Source of the DNA: Clostridiaceae bacterium
Lineage (GTDB): Bacteria; Bacillota; Clostridia; Peptostreptococcales; Tindalliaceae
Assembly: GCA_011390155.1 (NCBI GenBank)
Contig: JAABSW010000006.1
Coordinates: 1 to 64,000, forward strand
DNA length: 64,000 bases
Reading direction: 5' to 3'
In this document: positions 227 to 58,611 of the stretch, in pieces
Numbering within the stretch: the first letter of the stretch is position 1
Layout: each line of letters begins with the position of its first letter
Translations under genes and position numbers: made by a program
Notes under the pieces: model-generated
Databases searched by the model: none
Told to the model about the DNA's origin: nothing
The model's input: only the letters and a program-made list of their open reading frames with translations

Positions 227-1621
227 TTAGTAGCGCACTGCTTCTTTTACTGCTTTGATGGTTCTTTCTGCCAACTGCGATATTGTCAAATTTTTCATAC
301 CACGGACGTAAGTTGTCACTTCATTCTTAAGAGGGGCTTTCCAGTGGTCTGGTATGTTATGTTTTCCTATGGCAATGCCAAGTATGGTTCCCACCTGTGC
401 TGCATTACAGTCTACTTCTCTTCCTGCCATGGCAACGATGTGCATTGTTTCATCAAAATCGCCATTGCCAAACCACAGTCCCAACACTTCTGCTGCTGCA
501 TTTATATAGGCATGGCTCCAATGATACTTTTCCAGCATAGTTTCGCAGGCGTTCCACACATTTTTCCACTGTGCATTTTCTTCTTTGCACCATGTAAGCA
601 CTGTGTTGACAACGTGGTAATATTCACTTGTAGTGGGGATTAATTCTATGGCAGATTGCAAAATAACCCTGGGGTTTGATTCAACAAAAGCCAATGACGC
701 CATCACAGCGTTAAAGACTTCCCCTAAAATACCATTGTTGTCATGGGACACTGACCCGTCCATCCAGGCCAAGCGTGCAGCTTCTTTTGGATCACCGGGT
801 GCCACCATACCACAGATGGCCCCTCGCATTTGTGCGCCCACCCATTCGGAGAAAGGGTTATTACGGCTTCCACTATCCGGGGGGTAATATCCCAGGTTAA
901 TAGACCGAAGTGCCAGGTCTTCCGCATCGATGCCGTAGGGTATGGAAGAAACCCATTCATCCGCAATTTGCAACGCATTTATGCCATATCCTTTTTCTTC
1001 AAAACACCGTAAAAAAGCAAGTTCATAGGTAATGTCATTGGTAAGGCTGATGGGTTGGCGGACATACCCCTTTACATCACCACACAATTTTATGATCTGA
1101 TCCGTGGTGTATCCTTCTAATGCACTTCCCAGTTGGCTTCCTATGATTTTTCCCAGCCAGGCATCATTTATTTGCATTTCATATTCAATGGATTGTTCAT
1201 CGACTTCCTGCGCCTCTGGAAAATCGACAGCTTCAGCGTATTGCTCGTAAGACTTAAACATCTCATATTGCCAGTATGCTGCATCTGGGTTAATGTCTGC
1301 TGTAGATGTCAGATACTTGATCCGTGCTGTTACTCGAAACAGCTTAGACATATCATTTGCTTCGTATGCGTCCAATCCATCCTGTATCAATCGCTCTGCT
1401 GATTCTACAAAATAGCCTTTGTTTTCCAGGCTTTGTATCATGGCAACCATTAAACACTCAGGTTGTCCTGTACCTATGGTTTTTCCCTTCCACCATCCTT
1501 TTACCCGTTCATCTTCAATTTTTTCCATTTTTGAAAATAAGTCCCAATTGTTTGGCGGGGTATGTAGTACCTGTAGTTCTGCGTTATCAATCAACTCTTT
1601 TGAAAATTGCCATGCTTTCAT
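227..1621 (-). CDS. ADP-ribosylglycohydrolase-family protein, divergent metal site
   Basis: 464 residues from ATG 1621, chosen because GGAGGG stands seven bases upstream; an in-frame start 13 codons earlier has no such site. About 150 N-terminal residues are family-unusual. Then comes an all-helical ADP-ribosylglycohydrolase (ARH/DraG) core: a small-residue motif (KIIGSQLGSALEG), a central SHDNNGILGEVFNAVMAS segment and a C-terminal GREVDCNAAQVGTILG segment. In classical ARH enzymes the metal ligands sit in TDDT and DTDT/S motifs; here the equivalents read TNDI and EVDC, so two ligands look changed. The gene is inside a nucleoside transport and hydrolysis operon. I infer a role on a nucleoside-like glycosidic bond rather than on ADP-ribosylated protein, but this is unproven. 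Confidence 0.8.
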   Translation of the reverse strand: MKAWQFSKELIDNAELQVLHTPPNNWDLFSKMEKIEDERVKGWWKGKTIGTGQPECLMVAMIQSLENKGYFVESAERLIQDGLDAYEANDMSKLFRVTARIKYLTSTADINPDAAYWQYEMFKSYEQYAEAVDFPEAQEVDEQSIEYEMQINDAWLGKIIGSQLGSALEGYTTDQIIKLCGDVKGYVRQPISLTNDITYELAFLRCFEEKGYGINALQIADEWVSSIPYGIDAEDLALRSINLGYYPPDSGSRNNPFSEWVGAQMRGAICGMVAPGDPKEAARLAWMDGSVSHDNNGILGEVFNAVMASLAFVESNPRVILQSAIELIPTTSEYYHVVNTVLTWCKEENAQWKNVWNACETMLEKYHWSHAYINAAAEVLGLWFGNGDFDETMHIVAMAGREVDCNAAQVGTILGIAIGKHNIPDHWKAPLKNEVTTYVRGMKNLTISQLAERTIKAVKEAVRY

Positions 1622-1663
1622 GACTAACCCTCCTTTACACTTATCACCACAGATGCCCATTGC

Positions 1664-2962
1664 CTAAAACCTAATGGATGCGCTGCCTTTCCCTTTTTTC
1701 AATAAATCTTTGGTTGCCTTCAACATGTTGTGTTTTATATTTTCCAAGTTCATTTTTACTTTCCCATCGTATTTTGCCCAGCGCCCTGCAATCATCACAT
1801 GCTTTGCCTGTTCTTTTCCACTACTATAAAGAAGAGCCGCCAAGGGGTTATGTAGGGGCATGGTTGTCGGATGTGTCAAATCCCAGAATACCAAATCTGC
1901 TTTCCATCCTGCCTGAATTTTCCCTGTTTTAAAAGGCAGGGCTTCATGCCCTTTCATGATCATTTGCCAAATTTCTTTTAATGTTTGTCCTGTTGCTTCT
2001 TCCTTTAGCCATTTTCCCATCAATCCATACAACCTGGCCTGTTCCAGAGGGTTTAACGTGTTTGAACTGGCTGCACCGTCGGTTCCAATGGCCAGGGGCA
2101 GCTCTTTGGATTCATTCCAGATGTTTCCTGCACCCATGGCCAGCTTCATGTATGTTTTGGGACTAACGGCTATTGTTGTGGAAGGTGTTAGTAACTGTCG
2201 ATCTTCCGGCGCAACCCACAACCCGTGGGCCACAATGGCTGGCACCTCAAAACCTCCAGCATTTGCAACAACCTGAAATGGTGTGAGTCCATACTGATTG
2301 ATACTGTCCTTCACCTGTTGTCTGGTTTCCGAAACATGGAGGTGAATGCCAACGTCCATTTCTTTTGCCACATCAACCACCTGTTTTAATTGCTCCGGGG
2401 TACATGTATACGGCGAGTGAGGCCCAAAGCGCAACGAAAGGCCCTCATGTTTATGTTGATATTTTTCAATGAGTTTTACTGTCATCTGAACATCATCCTG
2501 AAAGGAAACATTCAACCCAAACAATGTGGGGGCTAAATCGCAGCGTATCCCTGTCTCAATGACAGCTTTTATTATGGCTTCCGGAAACATATAATGATCA
2601 GCAAAAGCGGTGACCCCATAGCTTAACATTTCATAGATGGCTGTTAAGGCACCTGCATAGGCATGGTCTTCTGTCATGTTCTTCTCATAAGGCCATATTT
2701 CCCTGTTAAACCAATCCTCAATTGAGACGTCCTCTGCTATGCCCCGAAACAATGTCATGGGGGAATGAGTGTGAAGGTTCACAAGGCCAGGTGTGATAAT
2801 GAAATTTTCGCAATCTAAAACAGTGGCGGGATCATAGTCATTCTTTATTTCTGATGATACATCAATGATTTCATCTTTGTTAATTATTAGATTTTTACCT
2901 TTGAAAAAAGTGCCAGTTTCATCAATGACACTGGCGCTTTTTAACAAGAAATCAACTTTCAT
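1664..2962 (-). CDS. mtaD: Amidohydrolase, MTA/SAH deaminase-like
   Basis: 432 residues; metal-dependent amidohydrolase of the TrzN/AtzA/MtaD group. Visible hallmarks are the NLHTHSPMTLFRG segment (HxH metal pair), the GPHSPYTC segment, the HLHVSET segment and GTDGAASSNTLN with the metal-binding Asp. Relatives deaminate 5'-methylthioadenosine, S-adenosylhomocysteine or adenosine, usually to the inosine form. It overlaps the preceding nucleoside hydrolase gene by 11 bases (start within the TATGA at its end), so the two are translationally coupled. In this operon it would convert adenine-type nucleosides to inosine types before hydrolysis. Guanine-deaminase-like or other nucleobase deaminase activity cannot be excluded from sequence alone. 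Confidence 0.85.
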   Translation of the reverse strand: MKVDFLLKSASVIDETGTFFKGKNLIINKDEIIDVSSEIKNDYDPATVLDCENFIITPGLVNLHTHSPMTLFRGIAEDVSIEDWFNREIWPYEKNMTEDHAYAGALTAIYEMLSYGVTAFADHYMFPEAIIKAVIETGIRCDLAPTLFGLNVSFQDDVQMTVKLIEKYQHKHEGLSLRFGPHSPYTCTPEQLKQVVDVAKEMDVGIHLHVSETRQQVKDSINQYGLTPFQVVANAGGFEVPAIVAHGLWVAPEDRQLLTPSTTIAVSPKTYMKLAMGAGNIWNESKELPLAIGTDGAASSNTLNPLEQARLYGLMGKWLKEEATGQTLKEIWQMIMKGHEALPFKTGKIQAGWKADLVFWDLTHPTTMPLHNPLAALLYSSGKEQAKHVMIAGRWAKYDGKVKMNLENIKHNMLKATKDLLKKGKGSASIRF

Positions 2963-3881
2963 AGGATTTCAGCAACCTTTTTACCAAGTGAACAAACCCT
3001 TCCCTGTCAATGTCCAGGGCCACATTCACATTGGGTTCTTTTTTTGTTACCCTCATCACGTCCACCACTGTTTTTCCTGTGGTGTATTTACCCTTTGTTT
3101 CAACCACCACATGATAGGGTTCCGTCTTAATCAGTTCTGGTTGTATCACTGCTGCAACAGCAGAAGGGTCATGCATCACCGCACCATCAAAACCAAACCG
3201 GGTCGCAAACCCATAAATGTGATTCATCATGTCCTGTGCCAGTTTTGCCCCTGTTCCCGGTGTCGAAGCCATTGAATCAATTTCTTCTTTGGTTAGAAGT
3301 GCTTTATGTGTACAGTCAAGTCCCACCATGGTAATGGGGATGCCGGAGTCAAAGACTATGCGAGCTGCTTCCGGATCTGCATAGATATTGTATTCTGCAG
3401 CAGGTGTGTCATTGCCATAACCAGATGACCCGGCCATCATGGTAATGCCTTCGATGCCCTCTTGCAACGAAGGGTACTTCATTAATGCCATCGCCACATT
3501 GCTAAGTGGCCCTAAGGTGATTAAATGTACTTTTTCACCCTTGTCAACAGTCAGCTTGTAGAACAGGTCCCATGCTTTTATCTCCAGTTCGGGAATAGAA
3601 GCCTCCGGTAACACCACTGGTCCCATTCCGGATTCACCGTGTACATGGGCTGCTGTCACCAAAGGCCGCATAATGGGTTTATCTGCCCCCTGGGCAACAG
3701 GTACATCTTTGTTTAAATATGATACTATTTTTCGTCCGTTAACCGCCGTTTTATCAGCAGTTTGGTTTCCTGCCACAGTGGTAACAGCCTTTATATCCAA
3801 CTCTTCGGCTGCAAATGCCATCACCAGGGCAATGGTATCGTCTGTGCCTGGGTCACAGTCAATAATCACTGGTCGTTTCAT
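2952..3881 (-). CDS. Nucleoside hydrolase (inosine-uridine preferring family), copy 1
   Basis: 309 residues. The N-terminal DCDPGTDDTIALVMAF is the Ca2+-binding DxDxGxDD motif of IunH/RihABC nucleoside hydrolases; a second metal-site Asp lies in the AVMHDPSAVAA segment near residue 240. These cytoplasmic enzymes hydrolyse the N-glycosidic bond of ribonucleosides to base plus ribose. ATG 3881 is preceded by GGGAGG and overlaps the stop of copy 2 by four bases (ATGA). With ribokinase downstream and an importer upstream, the job is ribonucleoside catabolism. Base preference is not readable from the sequence. Confidence 0.93.
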   Translation of the reverse strand: MKRPVIIDCDPGTDDTIALVMAFAAEELDIKAVTTVAGNQTADKTAVNGRKIVSYLNKDVPVAQGADKPIMRPLVTAAHVHGESGMGPVVLPEASIPELEIKAWDLFYKLTVDKGEKVHLITLGPLSNVAMALMKYPSLQEGIEGITMMAGSSGYGNDTPAAEYNIYADPEAARIVFDSGIPITMVGLDCTHKALLTKEEIDSMASTPGTGAKLAQDMMNHIYGFATRFGFDGAVMHDPSAVAAVIQPELIKTEPYHVVVETKGKYTTGKTVVDVMRVTKKEPNVNVALDIDREGFVHLVKRLLKSYES

Positions 3882-4825
3882 GCGCCAACCTCCCTTTGAT
3901 GGTAATATTGCAAGCTGTCTTTTAGCAACTGAATAAACGCCTTTCGATGGACATCAAAGACCACGTCCACCTGTTTTTCTTTTCCCGTTATACCATGTAT
4001 GTCTACGACAGTCGCCCCATCTGTGTATTCTCCGCAGGTTTCAATGTCAACATGAAGCTTTTGGGAGGTGAATAGCTCAGGTTTTATGAGCCAAGCCACT
4101 GCACAGGGATCATGTAATGGACATCCCTCAAAACCCATTTCCTGATGAAATTTTGCAAAGAAATCCAACAGTTCAGCCACCATCACGGCAACTTTGCCTC
4201 CCTGTTGCCTTAGTTCTTCAATTTCATGATCAAGTATCTGGGCTTTATGGGTTACATCCAGGCCACACATGGTGATGGGGATGCCTGATTCAAAAACAAT
4301 CTCCGCCGCTTCCGGGTCAACCATAATGTTAAACTCAGCCGCAGGCGTCCAATTGCCTCCCACCGCAGAACCACCCATCAATGAGATCCGTTCAATTTTA
4401 TGCTTTAGATGGGGTGCTGCAATCAGTAACCTGGCAATGTTTGTTAATGGTCCAGTGGGTACCAGGGTGATGGGTTCTTGACTCTCGCTGATTACTTTTT
4501 CCATCAATTCCAATGCGCTCAGCGGGCTGGCACTAAAGGTTGGTTCTGGTAATTCAGGGCCATCCAAGCCTGAATCGCCATGTACTTCAGGGGCAATTTC
4601 AAGTTCACGCACCAAAGGCTTACTGGCTCCTGCCGCCACAGGCACATGCGTAATGCCGGCAAAACCCAGCACTTTCATGGCGTTTTGCAGTGTTTTTCCA
4701 CTGGTCTGATTGCCTCCCACTGTAGTGACTGCCCTTACCTCCAGCTGATCACTGGCAAAGGCCATGAGCAGGGCAATGGCATCATCATGACCAGGGTCAC
4801 AATCCATAATAATTGGTTTCTTCAT
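3878..4825 (-). CDS. Nucleoside hydrolase (inosine-uridine preferring family), copy 2
   Basis: 315 residues, clearly paralogous to the adjacent copy 1: DCDPGHDDAIALLMAFAS at the start, MVDPEAAEIVFESGIP in the middle and PLHDPCAVAWL near residue 240 carry the calcium-site aspartates. ATG 4825 has GGAGG nine bases upstream and overlaps the permease stop by four bases. Two tandem hydrolases suggest split specificity, for instance purine versus pyrimidine nucleosides; this is inference. The two proteins differ widely outside the motifs, so the duplication is old. Confidence 0.93.
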   Translation of the reverse strand: MKKPIIMDCDPGHDDAIALLMAFASDQLEVRAVTTVGGNQTSGKTLQNAMKVLGFAGITHVPVAAGASKPLVRELEIAPEVHGDSGLDGPELPEPTFSASPLSALELMEKVISESQEPITLVPTGPLTNIARLLIAAPHLKHKIERISLMGGSAVGGNWTPAAEFNIMVDPEAAEIVFESGIPITMCGLDVTHKAQILDHEIEELRQQGGKVAVMVAELLDFFAKFHQEMGFEGCPLHDPCAVAWLIKPELFTSQKLHVDIETCGEYTDGATVVDIHGITGKEKQVDVVFDVHRKAFIQLLKDSLQYYHQREVGA

Positions 4826-5757
4826 ACACGGTCCTCCGTTTTATGTTTTTGGGCCATTGATTGACGTCTTTTTGCATAAACAACAAGTCCTAAGATGGTA
4901 ACAACATACGGTACCATTTGAACAAATTCGGATGGTATGCGAAATGCCTGCAACGCATTTGCAAGGGCATCTGCCGTACCAAAGAGAAGGGATGTTAGTA
5001 AAACACCAAATGGTCTTCCCATTCCCAGTGCTTCTGCAGCCAGCGCAATAAAACCCCTGCCAGCTGTCATGTTGGTTGAAAACCAGGAAACGTAACCCAT
5101 GGACATAAACGCTCCTCCGAAGCCTGCAAAAGCGCCACTCATGATCAAAGCGATGTACTGGGTTTTAATCACACTGATTCCCACAGAATCAGCCGCATGA
5201 GCGTTTTCTCCAACTGCACGAATACGTAACCCCAAAGGGGTTTTGTAGATAAGCACATACACCACAATCACTGATAATAAGGCCACATAGGTTAAGATGT
5301 TGTGATTTGATAAAACAGCACCCACAACAGGAATCTGGTGGATGAGGGGTATCTGTACCTTTGGTAATACAATACTTGCAAGAGAACTGGAAATGCCTCT
5401 GTCTCCAGATATAATATAAAGGGCAAAAACCGTGCCTCCTGAAGCCATTAAGTTGATGGCAATGGCGGCCAAAATGATGTCTGTTTTCAGATTGAGGGCA
5501 AAGTATGCCAACATTAACCCCAACAACATACCCGCCAGTACTGCAGCGACCAATCCTGCCAGACCACTGCCAGTTACAGCACTGATGACCACACCGGTTA
5601 GGGCTGCCGTCAGCATGGTGCCTTCCATGCTGATGTTTACCACACCGGCTTTGATGGAAATTAACGCACCCAGGGTTGCAAATAAGATGGGGGTGGTCAC
5701 ACGCAAAACAGCGTATCCAAAACTGGTTGATAGTATAATGTCCATCAGATTAGCCAT
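4822..5757 (-). CDS. nupQ: Nucleoside ABC transporter permease (NupQ-like)
   Basis: 311 residues, about nine hydrophobic segments. It matches the second permease of BMP-type nucleoside importers, with segments such as ATLGALISIKAGVVNISMEGTML and GYVSWFSTNMTAGRGFIALAAEALG typical of the BPD_transp_2 family. ATG 5757 is chosen because GGGAGG stands upstream; an ORF extension of six codons lacks support. The start overlaps the preceding permease gene by eight bases. It forms the heterodimeric membrane channel with the neighbouring permease and is driven by the duplicated ATPase. Confidence 0.92.
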   Translation of the reverse strand: MANLMDIILSTSFGYAVLRVTTPILFATLGALISIKAGVVNISMEGTMLTAALTGVVISAVTGSGLAGLVAAVLAGMLLGLMLAYFALNLKTDIILAAIAINLMASGGTVFALYIISGDRGISSSLASIVLPKVQIPLIHQIPVVGAVLSNHNILTYVALLSVIVVYVLIYKTPLGLRIRAVGENAHAADSVGISVIKTQYIALIMSGAFAGFGGAFMSMGYVSWFSTNMTAGRGFIALAAEALGMGRPFGVLLTSLLFGTADALANALQAFRIPSEFVQMVPYVVTILGLVVYAKRRQSMAQKHKTEDRV

Positions 5758-6829
5758 TCTGCACACCTCCCTCATCCATGGGCTGGTTTTGCATCTTTTC
5801 TTTGACGATCATTCGATGACGCCATCCAGCCAGAAGACGTTCAGCTGTCACCAGCATAATCATGATGCCCTGGATAATGGCCACCACTTCACTGGGCACG
5901 TCTGTGACCCTTGCCATGAGGTCTGCGCCAATTCTCAGATAGCCTAAAAAGAAGGCAAACACGGGGATCAGCAATGGGTTGTTGCGGGCCATAATGGCCA
6001 CAATGATACCATCCCAGCCATAACCCGGCAGCTGGAACCAGGTAAAACGTGTGTACATGCCAAGGAGTTCCACTGCTCCTCCCATGCCAGCAATCATACC
6101 TCCGATAATCTGTGAATAAAGGACAACCGACTTCGTATTGATACCGGAATACTCTGCAAAACGAATATTAAGTCCAACCATTCGCAGGGCATAGCCCCAG
6201 CGAGACCTGTATAGGAATAAATAAACCAAAATTACCATTAAAAGGGCAATGAATATGCCAAAATGAAGGCGGGTTCCTTCTAACACACGAATCAGTTTAA
6301 CCTGTTCAGGCAATCTGTGTGATGCCATGGCCCCTGCCTGTGCATCGCGAAAATAATTATTAATGATAAAGATGCCCAGCCAAAAGAGTATGTAGTTCAT
6401 CATAAGGGAAGAAACCAGTTCACTGGCATCCAGCTTTGATTTTAACAGCGCTGGTATGGCATTACCCATACCACCGGCTATTCCACCGCATAAGATGGCC
6501 ACAATGGGCATAATGACGGGCGGTAGATCGAAGGTTAAGGCTAAGGCCGTTGCACCGACAGCCCCAAAGAAAAAGCCACCCTCTGCACCCAGGTTAAACT
6601 GCTTGGCTGTGAACATAACGGATATAGCCAGTCCGGTAAAAACCAGGGGTATGGCCATTTCAAGCACATTACCAAAATTTCGCAGGCTGCTGAGAGGGCC
6701 TAAAAGAAAGCGCTGTAACGCATAGCCCGGGTCTTCGCTGACAGTGAAAATGATGACAAAGGCCAGTAATAGTGCGACACCAATGGCCACCAGGGTTCGC
6801 ATTGTTTCAAACAATATTTTTTTATTCAC
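5750..6829 (-). CDS. nupP: Nucleoside ABC transporter permease (NupP-like)
   Basis: 359 residues, multi-spanning BPD_transp_2 family permease. Typical segments are FNLGAEGGFFFGAVGATALAL, SLMMNYILFWLG and GYGWDGIIVAIMARNNPL. GTG at 6829 is the likely start: GGGAGG ends eight bases before it. An upstream GTG at 6838 would overlap the ribosome binding site itself. The start overlaps the ATPase stop by eight bases. Longer than its partner permease because of an extra N-terminal part, as in the YufP/NupP line. Confidence 0.92.
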   Translation of the reverse strand: MNKKILFETMRTLVAIGVALLLAFVIIFTVSEDPGYALQRFLLGPLSSLRNFGNVLEMAIPLVFTGLAISVMFTAKQFNLGAEGGFFFGAVGATALALTFDLPPVIMPIVAILCGGIAGGMGNAIPALLKSKLDASELVSSLMMNYILFWLGIFIINNYFRDAQAGAMASHRLPEQVKLIRVLEGTRLHFGIFIALLMVILVYLFLYRSRWGYALRMVGLNIRFAEYSGINTKSVVLYSQIIGGMIAGMGGAVELLGMYTRFTWFQLPGYGWDGIIVAIMARNNPLLIPVFAFFLGYLRIGADLMARVTDVPSEVVAIIQGIMIMLVTAERLLAGWRHRMIVKEKMQNQPMDEGGVQNG

Positions 6830-8375
6830 CCATGGCACCTCCCATTTCTTTCACTTCCATTTTTTTCAGTCCCAGCATGTACATGCCCAGTTCCATTTCA
6901 TCAACCTTGGAAGCGTCTTCAAAATAGGCAGCCATTTCACCATTGTACATCACCATTAAACTGTCACTTAATTCCATGACTTCGTTCAGGTCTGCAGAAA
7001 CAAGCAGTATAGCTGTTCCTTCATCCCTCAGTTCAACCAGTTTGCGACGAATGAATTCGGTAGAACCTACGTCAATGCCTCGTGTTGGTTGATCTGCGAT
7101 TATCAATTCGGGTTCAGAAGAAAATTCCCTTGCCACAACTACTTTCTGGATATTTCCCCCAGACAGCATGTTTACCTGTTGGGTTTGACTATCACATTTA
7201 ATGCTGAAATCTTGTATTAGTTCATTGGATTTTTGTACCAAATCATTTACTTTTTGTAAGAGTCCCGTGTTATACGCTGGCAAATCATATCGATCAGAGA
7301 TCAGGTTCTCTCCAATGGTTCCTTCCGCTGCTACGCCATAAACCATTCGATCTTCAGGGATATGAGACGTTTTCAAGTTTCGGATGCCTTTTACGGTTAA
7401 TTTGGTTGCTTCCTGGCCATTGATGAATACCTTGCCATTTGTCGCTTTTTTAAGACCAGTAATCATTTCAACAAGTTCGCCCTGTCCGTTTCCTTCAACA
7501 CCAGCTATACCCAGTATTTCACCTTCTCTGAGCCGAAATGAAAGCTTGTTAACCACTGGTTTGTTAGCCATGTCATAAAATGAAAGGTTTTCTATTTTCA
7601 ATACGGTGTCACCGGGATTGGCAGCTGTTTTGTTTACTTCCAGTATCACATCTCTGCCAACCATGAGCCGGGATATTTCCTGTTCAGATATATCCTTTGT
7701 ATCGTGCACTCCCATACTTCTACCATTTCTTAAAATGGTTAATCTGTCGGTGATTTGTTTTATCTCTTTTAGTTTATGGGAAATAAAGATAATGGTGAGT
7801 CCCTGGTTTTTAAGGTTTATCAACTCTTCAAACAACTCTTTTGTTTCCTGGGGTGTTAAAACCGCTGTTGGTTCATCTAAAATTAATATTTCGGCACCTC
7901 GCAGCAAAGCTTTTAAAATTTCAATTTTTTGTTTTTTACCTACTGCAAGGTTTTCAACCGTTGTTTTAGGATCAATTGCCAGGTTATATTTTTTTGAAAC
8001 CTCTTCAGTCATTGCCACCGCTTTATCAAAATCAAAAAAAGCATTGTTCTTTTTGGGTTCAATACCAAGCACCATATTTTCTGCCACTGTTAAGGATGGA
8101 ACAAGCATAAAATGCTGGTGAACCATGCCAATGCCATAATTAATGGCCTCCCGGGGAGAATTGAGGGTTATTTTTTCTCCTTTATAATAGATTTCTCCTT
8201 CTTCCGGTTGTTCCATACCAAAGAGTATTTTCATCAACGTTGATTTTCCTGCACCATTTTCACCCATAATGGCGTGAATTTCTCCTTTTCCAACAGAAAA
8301 GTCAACGTCCTTGTTGGCAACGATTCCATTTGGATACACTTTTGTGATCCCTTTCATTGATAAAATCTCATCCAT
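6822..8375 (-). CDS. nupO: Nucleoside ABC transporter ATP-binding protein, two fused ATPase domains
   Basis: 517 residues with two ABC domains in one chain, as in sugar and nucleoside importers. Domain 1 has Walker A GENGAGKSTLMK, a Walker B ILILDEPTAVLTP and a degenerate signature (LAVGKKQKIEIL). Domain 2 has a degraded Walker A (GVEGNGQGELVE) but a good signature (LSGGNIQKVVVARE) and Walker B (IIADQPTRGIDVGS). ATG 8375 (MDEILSMKG) gives the family's usual N-terminus; the ORF is open 35 codons further but runs through the two upstream hairpins. It energises the two permeases that follow. Confidence 0.95.
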   Translation of the reverse strand: MDEILSMKGITKVYPNGIVANKDVDFSVGKGEIHAIMGENGAGKSTLMKILFGMEQPEEGEIYYKGEKITLNSPREAINYGIGMVHQHFMLVPSLTVAENMVLGIEPKKNNAFFDFDKAVAMTEEVSKKYNLAIDPKTTVENLAVGKKQKIEILKALLRGAEILILDEPTAVLTPQETKELFEELINLKNQGLTIIFISHKLKEIKQITDRLTILRNGRSMGVHDTKDISEQEISRLMVGRDVILEVNKTAANPGDTVLKIENLSFYDMANKPVVNKLSFRLREGEILGIAGVEGNGQGELVEMITGLKKATNGKVFINGQEATKLTVKGIRNLKTSHIPEDRMVYGVAAEGTIGENLISDRYDLPAYNTGLLQKVNDLVQKSNELIQDFSIKCDSQTQQVNMLSGGNIQKVVVAREFSSEPELIIADQPTRGIDVGSTEFIRRKLVELRDEGTAILLVSADLNEVMELSDSLMVMYNGEMAAYFEDASKVDEMELGMYMLGLKKMEVKEMGGAMGE

Positions 8376-8399
8376 GCCTCTATTTGCCCCCCATTCATA

Positions 8400-8428
8400 A
8401 AAACTCCCGTCAATTTGGCGGGAGTTTT
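8400..8428 (-). terminator. Attenuator-like hairpin inside the nucleoside operon
   Basis: A perfect 10-base inverted repeat (8400-8409 with 8419-8428) with a nine-base loop. Read on the minus strand the stem ends in a short T run, so it resembles a weak intrinsic terminator. It lies 25 bases before the ATPase start and 72 bases after the lipoprotein gene, where partial termination or mRNA end protection would give more binding protein than transporter. Confidence 0.65.
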
Positions 8429-8446
8429 GATCCCCTGGTAAAGGGA

Positions 8447-8480
8447 ATGAACAGGACAGATCAGGGATTGTCCTGTTCAT
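8447..8480 (-). repeat. Perfect 12-base inverted repeat after the binding-protein gene
   Basis: ATGAACAGGACA at 8447-8458 is the exact reverse complement of 8469-8480, loop ten bases. There is no T run after it on the minus strand. It begins 20 bases downstream of the lipoprotein stop and most likely acts as a 3' stabilising hairpin of the lipoprotein mRNA, together with the hairpin at 8400-8428. Confidence 0.7.
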
Positions 8481-8500
8481 GGTTTTACATTGAGTTTTTG

Positions 8501-9655
8501 TTAGGGTCTGACAGAATCTCTTAGTTCATTTAGTTCATCAGTTGTCATTCCCATGGCTGAAGATACTGTAATGTCACCATTTGCTATCATATCTGCCATT
8601 TCCGCCAGTTCTGCCCGCAGTTCTTCAGACACATTGTTTTGATAGAATTCATTGTTAGCCAAACCGATGGCTTCTTCAACCAATCCCAGTTCTTCTGCCT
8701 CACCATAGGGGAGTGTTCCGTCCAGGTGCATTTCAACTGCACGGAAAAGTGAATTATCCACTCTCTTAAGCATTGAGGTCAGTACCAGTTCGGCTTTTTC
8801 CGGATCACTGTCGGCAAATACCATGGCCTGGTCAGAGTCAACCCCAATGGCGTACTTGTTCATTTCCTTTGCCGCATCCAATTGTCCTAACCCAGCTTGG
8901 CCTGCAACGTTAAAGCCTATGTCTGCGCCTGCGTTGTACTGGGCAAGGGCCATTTCTTTACCAGTGGCAGAATCATCAAACCCACCAATATAAGAAACAT
9001 ATACTTTAACATCTTCATCAACATAAAGTGCTCCTTCAATATAGCCCACAAGGAAATCGTTGATAACAGGAATGTCCATACCGCCCAGGAAGCCGATCAT
9101 TTTTTGTTCATTTGCCAGTTCCATATCTGAAGATGTTACATTTGCAGCTAGAGCACCTGCAAGGAATGAACCTTCATTTTGTTTGTACAAGATTGAATAC
9201 ACATTACTTAAATCAGCAACAGAATAATCTACCGCCGTGTCAAAAATGATGTATCGGTTATCAGGAAACTCAGGGGCAATTTCTTGAAGATATTCCTGCA
9301 TTTGCCATGTTCCCAATATGATGATGTCCCAATCCTGTTCAGAAACTTCCCATAGGGTTGGTTCCCAACGGGTTTGATCGTAAGACATTTCGATGGTTCT
9401 TACTTCTGCCCCAAACTCATCTTCAATCATTTCAAGGCCAGCGTTTGCAGAATCAAAGAAGGAACGATCGCCTAATGTGCCATTAAGCAGCAATACCACA
9501 CGCAAGGCATCTTCTTCTGCCTCTTCACCAGGTTCTGCAGGAGCCGATGGTTCATCTGCCGGAGCTGGTTCTTCAGGTTCTGGAGATCCGCATCCAGATA
9601 AGGTTAACGCCAATGCCAATAACAATATCAATACGATGCTACTATACTTCTTCAT
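8501..9655 (-). CDS. nupN: BMP-family nucleoside-binding lipoprotein
   Basis: 384 residues. Signal peptide with charged start, hydrophobic core and lipobox LSGC, giving Cys22 as the lipidated residue; an acidic, proline-rich linker of about 25 residues follows (EPEEPAPADEP). The mature part carries BMP/PnrA-family features such as LNGTLGDRSFFDSANAGLE, NRYIIFDTAVDY and IGVDSDQAMVF. BMP proteins bind purine nucleosides at the cell surface and hand them to the permeases. First gene of the operon, with its own promoter and AGGGGGA ribosome binding site. Called from family plus context; ligand not proven. Confidence 0.93.
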   Translation of the reverse strand: MKKYSSIVLILLLALALTLSGCGSPEPEEPAPADEPSAPAEPGEEAEEDALRVVLLLNGTLGDRSFFDSANAGLEMIEDEFGAEVRTIEMSYDQTRWEPTLWEVSEQDWDIIILGTWQMQEYLQEIAPEFPDNRYIIFDTAVDYSVADLSNVYSILYKQNEGSFLAGALAANVTSSDMELANEQKMIGFLGGMDIPVINDFLVGYIEGALYVDEDVKVYVSYIGGFDDSATGKEMALAQYNAGADIGFNVAGQAGLGQLDAAKEMNKYAIGVDSDQAMVFADSDPEKAELVLTSMLKRVDNSLFRAVEMHLDGTLPYGEAEELGLVEEAIGLANNEFYQNNVSEELRAELAEMADMIANGDITVSSAMGMTTDELNELRDSVRP

Positions 9656-9700
9656 GTAAATCCCCCTTTGTCTGTGGCTGCAGGATAGCAGCCTGGTTGT

Positions 9701-9726
9701 TTGTAAGAAGCAATATCCTCTTACAA
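9701..9726. promoter_or_regulatory. Palindrome overlapping the nucleoside operon start site
   Basis: TTGTAAGA (9701-9708) and TCTTACAA (9719-9726) form a perfect 8+8 palindrome with a ten-base centre. It touches the last base of the predicted -10 box and covers the start site, a usual place for a repressor operator. A second perfect hairpin (GGCTGC/GCAGCC, 9676-9693) follows in the leader; its six-base loop is complementary to the centre of the first. Confidence 0.5.
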
Positions 9727-9754
9727 GTGTAATTGAAATCTGTTATAAAGTCAA
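9726..9754 (-). promoter_or_regulatory. Putative sigma-A promoter of the nucleoside operon
   Basis: On the minus strand TTGACT (9749-9754) is followed after exactly 17 bases by TACACT (9726-9731). Predicted start is near 9719, about 65 bases before the lipoprotein ATG. The -10 box is only a four-of-six match, so strength may be modest or depend on a regulator. Confidence 0.55.
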
Positions 9755-9759
9755 TGTAT

Positions 9760-11904
9760 TCACTTATCTTTGCCAACAGCATTATCAACAGTTACAAGTG
9801 CAAAATCAATTTCTCTTTGTGCAAGATTCACACCTTCTACCCGTATGGTTAGCGCATCACCGATACGGAAAACTTTTTTCGTTCTTTCGCCCGTTAATGT
9901 CAGTTGCTGTTGGTCGTAAATATAATAGTCATCTTCCAAATCACTGAGCCTGATTAAACCTTCCACCGTGTTGTCCAGTTCCACAAAGATTCCAAAAGAA
10001 GTAATGCCTGATATGAGACCGTCAAAGGTTTCTCCGATATGTTGCTTCATGTAGACTGCTTTTTTCAAGTCAACGGATTCTCTTTCTGCCTCTTCAGCGT
10101 TTCGCTCCTGTTCAGATGAATGAGCAGCTGTTTTTTCCAGCTTTCCCTCCAACTTATTTCTTTCCTCTTCATCAGCCAACACTCCATTTTTTAACACTTC
10201 TTTAATGATTCGATGAATGGCTAAATCCGGATACCTTCGAATAGGCGAGGTAAAATGGGTGTAGTACCTGGCAGCCAGCCCAAAGTGTGTATCATGGATC
10301 GCTGTATATTTTGCTTTTTTTAATGAACGCAACATCATGGTGTTAATAACGGGCGCCTCTTTTTTCCCTTCCACTTCAGCCAATAATTGCTGCAATTCCT
10401 TTGGATGCATGTCACTACCTGCACCCTTGAGTTTGTAGCCAAAATGAAAAATAAATTTATTCAAATCCATCATTTTTTCTTCATCTGGGTCTTCATGAAT
10501 TCGATAAATAAAAGGTTGTTTCATCCAGTAATGATGTTCAGCCACTGTTTCATTACACACCAACATAAATTCTTCGATAATCCGGTTAGCTGTTCGTCTT
10601 TCTTCTAACCTGATATCAATGGGGTTGCCTTGTTCATCCAACACCACTTTTGACTCAACAAAATGAAAATCAATGGCTCCCCGGGCGTCTCTTCTTTTTC
10701 GTAGCCGTTGGTAAAGTTTATCCATCAACTGAAGGTCTGCTTTAATATGCCCGTATCGCTTCTTCAGGTCTTCATCATGATTTTCAAGCAAATCACTTAC
10801 GTCATCATAGATTAATCGCTCAGTTGTATTGATAACGGTCTCATGTATTTCGTGATGTACGACAATACCTTTGTCATCAATGTCCATAAAAACTGACAAG
10901 GTCAGTCTGTCTTCATTGGGGTTTAGACTGCAAATACCGTTGGAAATTTCCTTCGGAAGCATAGGCAGTACCCTGTCAACCAGGTAGACACTTGTCCCTC
11001 TGTCCCAGGCTTCCTGGTCCAATTTTGATCCTTCTCGTACATAATGTGCCACATCTGCAATATGAACACCTAGTCGAATTTTGTTTCCGTCTATTTTTTC
11101 AACTGAGATGGCATCGTCCAAATCTTTTGCATCCGGTCCGTCAATGGTCACAATGCTCATCTGTCTTAAATCTTTGCGACGGTGTATTTCTTTTTCCGGT
11201 ATTATTTTAGCAACAGCTTGCGCATCCTTTAAAACACCTTTACCAAAGGTTTCATTTAATCCATGTTTTCGAATAATAACCATCATGTCGGTTTCCGGAT
11301 CTGCTGGATTACCCAACACTTCAATTATTTTACCTTCTGGATTTCGCATGTTTTCCGACCATTTTGTAATGCGGCAGACGACTTTGTGACCATTTGGTAC
11401 ACCCTTTGCCTTGTCCCCAGGTATAAAGATATCTGAGTTAAACCGGGGATCATCAGGAACAACAAACCCAAATTTCTTTGACTTTTCAAAAGTTCCCGGC
11501 AACTCTAACACGCCTCGCTCCAGTACCTTTACCACTTCTCCCTCAGCTTTCTGGTCTTCCCCAGCCGATTCTTTTATCCGCACTAAAACCTTGTCTAAAT
11601 GAAAGGCATTGCGCATGGCATTGGATGGAATGTAGGCGGATGGAAGCTCTGGATCGATGGAATCCACAAATCCATAACCTTTCCAGTGACCTTTTAAAAT
11701 ACCTGTCATATAACCCATTTTTTCCGGAATTCCATAACGCTGGCTTCTGGTTGACATCACAAGTCCTTCTTTTTCCATGTCAGAAAGGATTTCTTGAAGT
11801 GCTTTTTTTTGATCAGAGCCAATTTCCATTGCTTCCATTAGCTCATGAATCTTCATTGGTCGATATGCGGTGGTTTTCATACATGTCAATACCTTTTCTT
11901 TCAT
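9760..11904 (-). CDS. rnr: Ribonuclease R
   Basis: 714 residues, typical length. Order: N-terminal winged-helix/OB region (residues 1-60), cold-shock-type OB domains (to about 220), RNB catalytic domain (about 240-570) with the metal-binding segment DGPDAKDLDDAISVE and LGVHIADVAHYV, and a C-terminal S1 domain (GISGITSFGIFVELDNTVEGL equivalent) near 640-710. It is a processive 3'-5' exoribonuclease that degrades structured RNA and assists tmRNA quality control. ATG 11904 with AAGGA about ten bases upstream. In many Clostridia rnr lies next to secG and smpB; here secG is separated by hppA and no smpB is present. Confidence 0.96.
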   Translation of the reverse strand: MKEKVLTCMKTTAYRPMKIHELMEAMEIGSDQKKALQEILSDMEKEGLVMSTRSQRYGIPEKMGYMTGILKGHWKGYGFVDSIDPELPSAYIPSNAMRNAFHLDKVLVRIKESAGEDQKAEGEVVKVLERGVLELPGTFEKSKKFGFVVPDDPRFNSDIFIPGDKAKGVPNGHKVVCRITKWSENMRNPEGKIIEVLGNPADPETDMMVIIRKHGLNETFGKGVLKDAQAVAKIIPEKEIHRRKDLRQMSIVTIDGPDAKDLDDAISVEKIDGNKIRLGVHIADVAHYVREGSKLDQEAWDRGTSVYLVDRVLPMLPKEISNGICSLNPNEDRLTLSVFMDIDDKGIVVHHEIHETVINTTERLIYDDVSDLLENHDEDLKKRYGHIKADLQLMDKLYQRLRKRRDARGAIDFHFVESKVVLDEQGNPIDIRLEERRTANRIIEEFMLVCNETVAEHHYWMKQPFIYRIHEDPDEEKMMDLNKFIFHFGYKLKGAGSDMHPKELQQLLAEVEGKKEAPVINTMMLRSLKKAKYTAIHDTHFGLAARYYTHFTSPIRRYPDLAIHRIIKEVLKNGVLADEEERNKLEGKLEKTAAHSSEQERNAEEAERESVDLKKAVYMKQHIGETFDGLISGITSFGIFVELDNTVEGLIRLSDLEDDYYIYDQQQLTLTGERTKKVFRIGDALTIRVEGVNLAQREIDFALVTVDNAVGKDK

Positions 11905-35893: not shown

Positions 35894-36062
35894 CAAATTC
35901 TCTCTGATGGAGCAGGTTTCCTGACTCGGTGTCTTCACCAGAACTGCGTCTTCCCGGACTTTCCCAGTGACCTTTGCAGCCTGACTCTCCCTTACAGTGG
36001 CGCGACCGTGCCGGATTTTCACCAGCTTCCCTCTCTGCCTTATGTTTAGGCATCACTCGCAT
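35888..36062 (-). ncRNA. Cobalamin (adenosylcobalamin) riboswitch
   Basis: The minus strand carries the conserved core in order: GGGAAGCTGGTGAAAATCC, then GCGCCACTG, then CACTGGGAAAGTCCGGGAAG, and finally the B12 box GAGTCAGGAAACCTGC (35911-35927 region). AGGCA at 36038-36042 can close the aptamer with TGCCT at 35891-35895, or pair with an upstream TGCCT. Binding of cobalamin should switch off btuFCD-cobQ-cbiB-cobD. Confidence 0.97.
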
Positions 36063-36095
36063 CAGAATATATTCTTTTCATTTGAACGGTTTAAG

Positions 36096-56212: not shown

Positions 56213-56230
56213 CTGTTCCATCGTGATAAA

Positions 56231-56577
56231 CGAGTAAACCTATAAGCCGAGTTCTGTATTAGACAGCCATCTATCTAGGCCGCGTGTTACCAAACGGCTC
56301 AAGCAACCTACCACGGGACGCGACGGGCAGCCGCTTTTTCAGCCCCTACTTGGTCTTGCTCCTGATGGGGTTTACATAGCCAGCCTGTCACCAGACTGCT
56401 GGTGAGCTCTTACCTCACCTTTCCACCCTTACCTGACTTGCATGCAAGCAGGCGGTATCTCTCTGTTGCACTATCCTTAGAGTCGCCTCTACTGGGAGTT
56501 ACCCAGCACCATTGCCCTGGGGAGCTCGGACTTTCCTCGTCATCACATTGTGATGCCGCGACTGTCTGGTTTACTCG
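56231..56577 (-). ncRNA. rnpB: RNase P RNA, class A
   Basis: The ends CGAGTAAACC and GGTTTACTCG (56568-56577 with 56231-56240) form a perfect ten-base P1 stem. Universal segments are present: GAGGAAAGTCCGAGCTCC near the 5' end, ACAGAGAGATACCGCC in the middle, GGTAAGGGTGGAAAGGTGAGGTAAGAG, and GGCCTAGATAGATGGCTGTC near the 3' end. Catalytic RNA that matures tRNA 5' ends. Together with flanks it fills most of the gap 56080-56674. A bacillus-type (class B) architecture is not suggested. Confidence 0.97.
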
Positions 56578-56674: not shown

Positions 56675-57793
56675 CTAAATGGTTTTTATCGGATTATTTT
56701 GATTTTTTGCACATACAATGCTTACGGAATGACCTGTTTTATTAAAATATTCCTTTAAATGGTTTTCCACAACTTCTGTAAAACATATTTCTGATTCAAA
56801 ATGACCAACATCAAACAAGTGAAGGTCCAGGGATTCTGCCAGTTGAGCGTCATGGTACTTAATATCCCCCGTTACTAAGGCATCACACCCATTCTTCGCT
56901 GCTTCTTCGATGGCGCTGGCGCCACTGCCGGTTAGTACTGCAATCTTATTGATAGAAGTTGTTGAAGCTTCTACCCATCGTAACGTTTTTAGATGAAACA
57001 CATCTTTAAGCTGATCAACAAAATCTTTTACCGGTATTGATGAAGGCAATTCACCTATACGTCCTATGCCATGTTGTTCCCCTTTCTGGTTCAATTGGAA
57101 CACATCATAAGCCACCTCTTCGTATGGATGAACTTTTTTCATCGCATCAATGACAGCTGTCAGTTGTTTAAAGGGTACAATGGTCTCCAGCCTGGTTTCA
57201 GACACATGTTCAATTTTATCAATTGAGCCAATTGCAGGAGATGCTCCTTCAAGGGGTTTAAAAGTGCCAATTCCCCGCGACTTGAAACTACAATGACTGT
57301 AATTACCAATATGCCCCGCTCCTTCAGCAGCCAGAGCATCTGCCACCCTTTCGACATCATTGTCTGGCACATAAACCACCAGTTTTAACAGTGGTTCTGA
57401 TGAAGTATGTTCCAGTAAACGCTGCTTTGTTAAGTTTAGTTTATGAAATACCCAATCGTTAAGCCCGCCTTTGGCAATGTCCATGTTTGTATGTGCAGCG
57501 TATAATGCTATTCTAGATGCAAGCAATTGTTGAATAACCTTCCCTGGCATGCGGTCTGTGCGAATGTTTTGGATAGGTGAAAAAAGAAAAGGATGATGGG
57601 TTAGGATCATGTCTGGTTCATGGACCAAAGCTTCTGTCAGGCAGGCTTCCGTTAAATCCAAGGCAAGAAAAACCTTTGTCACGTCATCCTCCGGAGAACC
57701 AATCTGCAAGCCGACATGGTCCCATTCCATGGCCAAAGATTCTGGGGCCAATTGATTCAATGCAGCGATAATGTCTTTTACTTTGCAAACCAT
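56675..57793 (-). CDS. Nif3-like dinuclear metal-centre hexameric protein (YqfO)
   Basis: 372 residues. N-terminal WDHVGLQIGSPEDDV and LTHHPFLFSPIQ plus C-terminal TGDIKYHDAQLAESLDLHLFDVGHFESE carry the metal-site His/Glu residues. The middle part (about 135-235) is the PII-like insertion of the Bacillus YqfO type. Often called GTP cyclohydrolase I type 2, but function is uncertain. AAGGAGG before ATG 57793; overlaps trmK by 16 bases, the usual neighbour. Confidence 0.94.
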   Translation of the reverse strand: MVCKVKDIIAALNQLAPESLAMEWDHVGLQIGSPEDDVTKVFLALDLTEACLTEALVHEPDMILTHHPFLFSPIQNIRTDRMPGKVIQQLLASRIALYAAHTNMDIAKGGLNDWVFHKLNLTKQRLLEHTSSEPLLKLVVYVPDNDVERVADALAAEGAGHIGNYSHCSFKSRGIGTFKPLEGASPAIGSIDKIEHVSETRLETIVPFKQLTAVIDAMKKVHPYEEVAYDVFQLNQKGEQHGIGRIGELPSSIPVKDFVDQLKDVFHLKTLRWVEASTTSINKIAVLTGSGASAIEEAAKNGCDALVTGDIKYHDAQLAESLDLHLFDVGHFESEICFTEVVENHLKEYFNKTGHSVSIVCAKNQNNPIKTI

Positions 57794-58482
57794 TCCAATG
57801 CCTCCTTCAACTTTATCAACAATAGTTCCACTTCCATTATTTTCGATTTTTCTACCGTTTCAGACTTCAACATCCCCCGTCGTTTATTCTCCGTTAATCT
57901 AATTTTTCTCCGTAAAAATGCTTGTGAGATATCAGGCTCCTGGTATTGCAAAAATGCTCCCACTTCCAATACTAAGGGATCAATCTGTTGTAATGGTTTG
58001 TTCCTAAACTGTGTGCACAGAATTTCATAGAACCGATTTTTTTCCTGCATCAGTATTTCATTGGTAATTTCATAACCATTTTCCAATAGATACTGACGTA
58101 ACTCTCTGACACTCTGTACCGGTTGCAGTATAATTCTTTCAGCACCTTTTGCTATGGAGGGGCTTTGTTCCAATATTTCACTGATTAAGTTTCCCCCCAT
58201 ACCGGCAATAATAATAGTGGAGGCTTCTCCCTCATGCAGTATGCTAAGACCATCCCCCAGACGGAGTTCAATGTGTTGCTGAAGTTTATGCCGTTGGATA
58301 ACACGTCGTGCTTTGTTTAAAGGATCCTGGTTCACATCCGCAGCGATCACGCTGGATAAGCCCTTGTTTTTCACTAAATACACAGGAAGGTATCCGTGGT
58401 CTGTGCCAATGTCTGCAACCGTTTTATTAATAATGACTTCATCTGCAATGGCTTTAAGCCGATGCGAAAGTGGTATCCTCAT
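57778..58482 (-). CDS. trmK: tRNA (adenine-22-N1)-methyltransferase TrmK
   Basis: 234 residues. MRIPLSHRLKAIADEV start, Rossmann motif ADIGTDHGYLPVYLV, IIIAGMGGNLISEIL (NPPY-like position) and PVQSVRELRQYLLENGYEI. Methylates A22 in tRNA. ATG 58482 follows GGGAG; the frame is open 15 codons more. Confidence 0.95.
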   Translation of the reverse strand: MRIPLSHRLKAIADEVIINKTVADIGTDHGYLPVYLVKNKGLSSVIAADVNQDPLNKARRVIQRHKLQQHIELRLGDGLSILHEGEASTIIIAGMGGNLISEILEQSPSIAKGAERIILQPVQSVRELRQYLLENGYEITNEILMQEKNRFYEILCTQFRNKPLQQIDPLVLEVGAFLQYQEPDISQAFLRRKIRLTENKRRGMLKSETVEKSKIMEVELLLIKLKEALEWFAK

Positions 58483-58540
58483 ATTATGATCACTCCCTAC
58501 CCATTTCACCATGCAGCGATGCTCCATCGTGCAGCCAGAT

Positions 58541-58570
58541 AAACAAAGGACTCGCCTAGGCGAATCCTTT
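58541..58570 (-). terminator. Terminator after rpoD
   Basis: AAAGGA-c-TCGCC and GGCGA-a-TCCTTT (58545-58570) form a stem with one internal mismatch and a tiny TA centre; a broken T tract follows on the minus strand. Confidence 0.7.
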
Positions 58571-58611
58571 ACTGTTCTTCCATCGATACAGCTGGATGGT
58601 CTTTGGTTTAC

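Follow-up and report, generated by a model that had tools for sequence, protein, structure and literature searches.

Stem-loops at the 5′ termini of the E. coli ompA and papA mRNAs stabilize the messages that carry them. Purine riboswitches have two hairpins with complementary loops and a stem that encloses both, and repressor operators, of the LacI type and others, lie over start sites. In B. subtilis, removal of the aprE 5′ stem-loop is described as reducing mRNA stability from more than 25 to about 5 min (PMC11805744; see also PMC3997798). The locus considered here lies in a 64,000-nt stretch of DNA (the window) from a Clostridiaceae bacterium of the family Tindalliaceae, where the 104-nt gap between rnr and what its predicted genes identify as a BMP-type nucleoside transport/uptake operon, both on the minus strand, holds a promoter and two hairpins (Table 1); the BMP start codon is at 9655. 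As in aprE-type stabilizing leaders, there is a short leader with a stem-loop near its 5′ end and a strong Shine-Dalgarno site next, and likewise form seems to outweigh letters; unlike in them, the predicted transcript would run for some 26 nt before the second hairpin begins. A generic 5′-leader role for the stem-loops behind this conserved promoter, most likely protection of the mRNA 5′ end, is tentatively preferred, at close to an even chance.

Table 1. Features of the rnr–nucleoside operon junction, in window coordinates
Feature	Position	Strand	Details
RNase R gene, rnr	9760–11904	minus	Upstream of the operon; TIGR02063, 860.6 bits
Sigma-70/sigma-A-type promoter	9726–9754	minus	TTGACT (9754–9749), 17 nt, TACACT (9731–9726)
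8+8 palindrome (hairpin 1)	9701–9726	minus	TTGTAAGA-N10-TCTTACAA; arms 9726–9719 and 9708–9701; spans the −10 end and predicted start
Leader hairpin (hairpin 2)	9676–9693	minus	GGCTGC-TATCCT-GCAGCC; 6-bp stem
Shine-Dalgarno region	9662–9669	minus	AAAGGGGG
BMP/PnrA-like substrate-binding lipoprotein, operon gene 1	8501–9655	minus	PF02608, E 1.7e-58
Remaining operon genes	227–8480	minus	ABC ATPase, two permeases, two RihA-type nucleoside hydrolases, amidohydrolase, ADP-ribosylglycohydrolase-family protein

The family sample comprised seven genomes including the source genome (G000). All seven have a BMP orthologue, those of the other six being 95, 83, 76, 75, 74 and 74% identical, with the closest relative (G001) first, and all seven have rnr directly upstream with the gap also kept; identical matches are given by the named records of a Clostridiaceae MAG (LH_M71), of Anoxynatronum buryatiense and of Tindallia MAGs. 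By eye, TTGAC[TG]-17-TAnnnT is at the same position in every one, and only two of 29 promoter sites differ between the source genome and its closest relative. The nucleoside operon is predicted to be driven by a conserved housekeeping-type promoter directly behind rnr. The 8+8 palindrome that the initial annotation placed over the predicted start is indeed there, with a perfect match between its arms. It shares its first base with the end of the −10 hexamer, which puts the predicted start, 5–8 nt past the −10, in the left arm. Since most of that arm would then go untranscribed, only hairpin 2, which would lie within the promoter-made transcript, can be counted as a firm RNA element; full hairpin 1 would form only in RNA begun further upstream, by rnr read-through for instance, and otherwise a stump of 4–5 bp would be left.

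As a group, the family leaders fold better than control sequences. Folded whole as RNA, the source leader has an energy of −23.5 kcal/mol (z −3.4), a shorter stretch reaching z −5.4, and the leaders of the six relatives have a mean z of −2.9 when taken from the −10 end and of −2.3 from a start 7 nt later. The mean for the controls, 22 upstream stretches taken from the window, is −0.44; four of them are at −2 or below and one of these at −3 or below. A rank test of relatives against controls gives p 0.003 and 0.013 for the two starts respectively, values that are generous because the relatives are not independent, two of them (G003 and G004) being near-duplicates, and because G001 and G006 are weak singly (z −0.7 to −1.9). 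The one control stretch of the 22 below −3, at 58528–58602 before the gene at 57778–58527, has z −3.4. Of the proposal of a promoter with a structured leader, then, the general part stands, with the promoter in seven of seven genomes and the folding of the group, but its specific readings as an operator or a kissing pair found no support.

The letters of the hairpins are another matter. The seven leaders are alignable only within two close pairs, and so no covariance model was built. In G001 hairpin 1 is imperfect and the hairpin-2 stem carries a new loop; the next relative, G002, has an unrelated second hairpin of about 7 bp, and G003 to G006 have other hairpins, unlike the source pair. Between the source genome and G001, 7/25 sites of hairpin 1 past the −10 have changed and 3/10 of its pairs are lost in the aligned register. 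The hairpin-2 loop differs at four of six sites and by a gap, and its stem at 2/12 sites with none of the six pairs lost, two G-C pairs having become G-U. At four-fold silent sites of the BMP gene, 33% of 162 have changed. With change in the hairpins near this silent rate, against 2/29 in the promoter and 0/14 around the Shine-Dalgarno site, the hairpin letters appear close to unconstrained, in contrast to promoter and ribosome site. The G-C to G-U swaps, which RNA tolerates and a DNA palindrome does not, count for reading hairpin 2 as an RNA stem. Neither arm conservation nor compensatory change is seen for hairpin 1, one of the outcomes that the initial annotation had set against its proposal; for hairpin 2 this is so only in part, its stem surviving in G001 by way of the two swaps.

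The other close pair, G003 and G004, spans 98 aligned columns and shows one gap and four substitutions. Every substitution is in a hairpin, three in the stem and one in the loop, and no pair is broken: one pair has changed on both sides, from G-C to A-U, and one U-G has become U-A. The compensatory pair is one event and is not significant on shuffles (248/500).

With such turnover, a serious rival, somewhat unlikely in our estimate, takes the promoter as the sole function and puts the palindrome and hairpins down to chance or to template-switch mutation, a process that would make the arms alike without selection. Template switching is described as homogenizing the arms of inverted repeats (PMC8604942, PMC7202029). 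The near-silent rate of change in the hairpins fits this rival, as does the presence of the perfect palindrome in one genome of seven. So does the frequency of perfect inverted repeats (arms of at least 8, spacer 3–14), of which the 64-kb window has 23 against 11–20 in five shuffles; by our own arithmetic a 104-nt gap would contain one in about 4% of cases, which is uncommon but not remarkable. Against it are the better folding of the six relatives' leaders, as a group, than of controls, and the preservation of pairing by all stem substitutions between G003 and G004, keeping in mind that template switching could yield the paired change in one step.

The preferred reading, a generic leader role, is suggested by a promoter that is conserved together with a leader whose form is loosely kept while its letters are not, for which aprE is a precedent. 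The 5′-proximal hairpins would shield the mRNA from 5′-end-dependent decay and keep the leader ordered as far as the Shine-Dalgarno site, and the folding of the stem-loops, not their letters, would be loosely kept. From its sequence the locus looks like an ordinary structured mRNA start, not a new switch. Quite improbable is a further pair of possibilities: a structure-only leader element, in which a stem-loop is selected at a fixed place as its letters turn over almost freely within the family (several unrelated hairpins across the seven species), or a fast co-evolving repressor that changes its operator there. If the structure-only alternative were true, nature would have provided here, on a small scale, a test of letter freedom in an mRNA-protecting hairpin.

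The palindrome was also proposed as a repressor site, and a perfect 8+8 dyad across the end of the −10 and the predicted start is at the classical position for a repressor, as with operators of the LacI type and others. The family comparison speaks against that proposal, in that the palindrome, at up to one mismatch, is missing from 6/6 other family genomes, and even in G001, despite BMP proteins 95% identical, Watson-Crick symmetry is left at only 4/8 arm positions. Within its own genome there is no excess of the palindrome: when up to three mismatches are allowed it has 22 sites and the reversed control 20. A search before other nucleoside genes, which the initial annotation had suggested, gave no further copy: the palindrome was not found upstream of the second BMP gene (C58), and the contexts of the three two-mismatch sites show no nucleoside operator of such a kind. 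A palindrome regulon was rejected on these genome and family scans and contexts. Nor was a DNA-binding domain found in the two operon-end genes tested, those for the PfkB-type kinase and SmpB, of G002 and G003. Since conservation has no power on a one-species site, an operator peculiar to this species keeps some probability and is judged unlikely. The best guess from the comparison is that the perfect palindrome is a species-specific quirk.

Some more distant clostridial orthologues have a different paired motif, AAACGTTT, upstream of BMP, mostly near the start, and this is a point in favour of repressor control. The two copies are 13 nt apart in loci L048, L049, L055, L068 and L099 (AACGTTT in L099); by their look they would be a LacI-type operator, and repression of the nucleoside operon in those distant clostridia is plausible. 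The 200 nt preceding BMP gave no match to the motif in family loci L032, L034 and L035, and none was seen by eye in the leaders of L004/L033, L007 and L008, so that a LacI-type operator shared with the family was rejected for the loci examined. A stricter two-sided pattern, run over L032–L111, matched in L099 only. The dyad described here differs from known repressor operators in having no conserved copies, and its letters are unlike those of the AAACGTTT pairs.

Far less probable is a nucleoside- or purine-sensing riboswitch in which two RNA hairpins are joined by a kissing loop, as had been envisaged for transcripts begun further upstream. The complementarity on which it was based is real as sequence, the hairpin-2 loop TATCCT pairing over 6 bp with AGGATA in the palindrome centre, where GGATA had been noted. 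Random 6-nt loops match the palindrome centre by at least 5 bp in 1.9% and by 6 bp in 0.24% of trials, a calculation made post hoc. In the source fold, though, the GG of GGATA is locked in stem 1, so that the free loop, ATATTG, offers part of the complement only, and the predicted start cuts hairpin 1. The longest Watson-Crick run between the loops falls from 6 in the source genome to 2 in both G001 and G002, the three genomes that the comparison covers (the other four relatives have no comparable hairpin pair by eye), and beyond G001 the hairpin sequences are wholly different.

The locus resembles a purine riboswitch in its place upstream of a nucleoside gene and, in the source genome only, in a pair of hairpins with complementary loops; it differs in having no Rfam match and no enclosing stem in the fold, and in a complement that is not conserved. 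The initial annotation had itself seen no purine aptamer consensus, and no Rfam aptamer matches: at the gathering level neither the purine riboswitch nor any other family is found at the leader, and with the limit relaxed to E 10 the only hit in 9560–9860 is a snoRNA model (E 1.1) on the plus strand, with none on the minus strand. Nor does an intrinsic terminator follow the hairpins on the minus strand, where no T-run comes after 9676–9693; the flag for a terminator there came from the plus strand alone, against the direction of the genes. With the complement lost in the closest relatives and no Rfam match, the kissing-loop reading was rejected. Nothing at the leader supports a new sensor, and a candidate kissing-loop nucleoside sensor is thereby removed.

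At the far end of the operon, in G002 and G003, the two relatives whose sequence was followed to that point, the PfkB-type kinase gene is last in the run, with smpB and tmRNA after it, the operon there being flanked by rnr on one side and smpB-tmRNA on the other; the stretches concerned are 227–9655 of the window, 8029–19561 of L122 and 7468–18689 of L123. In 4/7 other genomes of the order only some 1–3 kb separate rnr from smpB, and this short spacing makes it probable that the nucleoside operon was inserted between them in Tindalliaceae. Elsewhere in the window, on the minus strand, are a cobalamin riboswitch (35895–36075, 95.3 bits) and a bacterial class A RNase P RNA (56227–56577, 303 bits).
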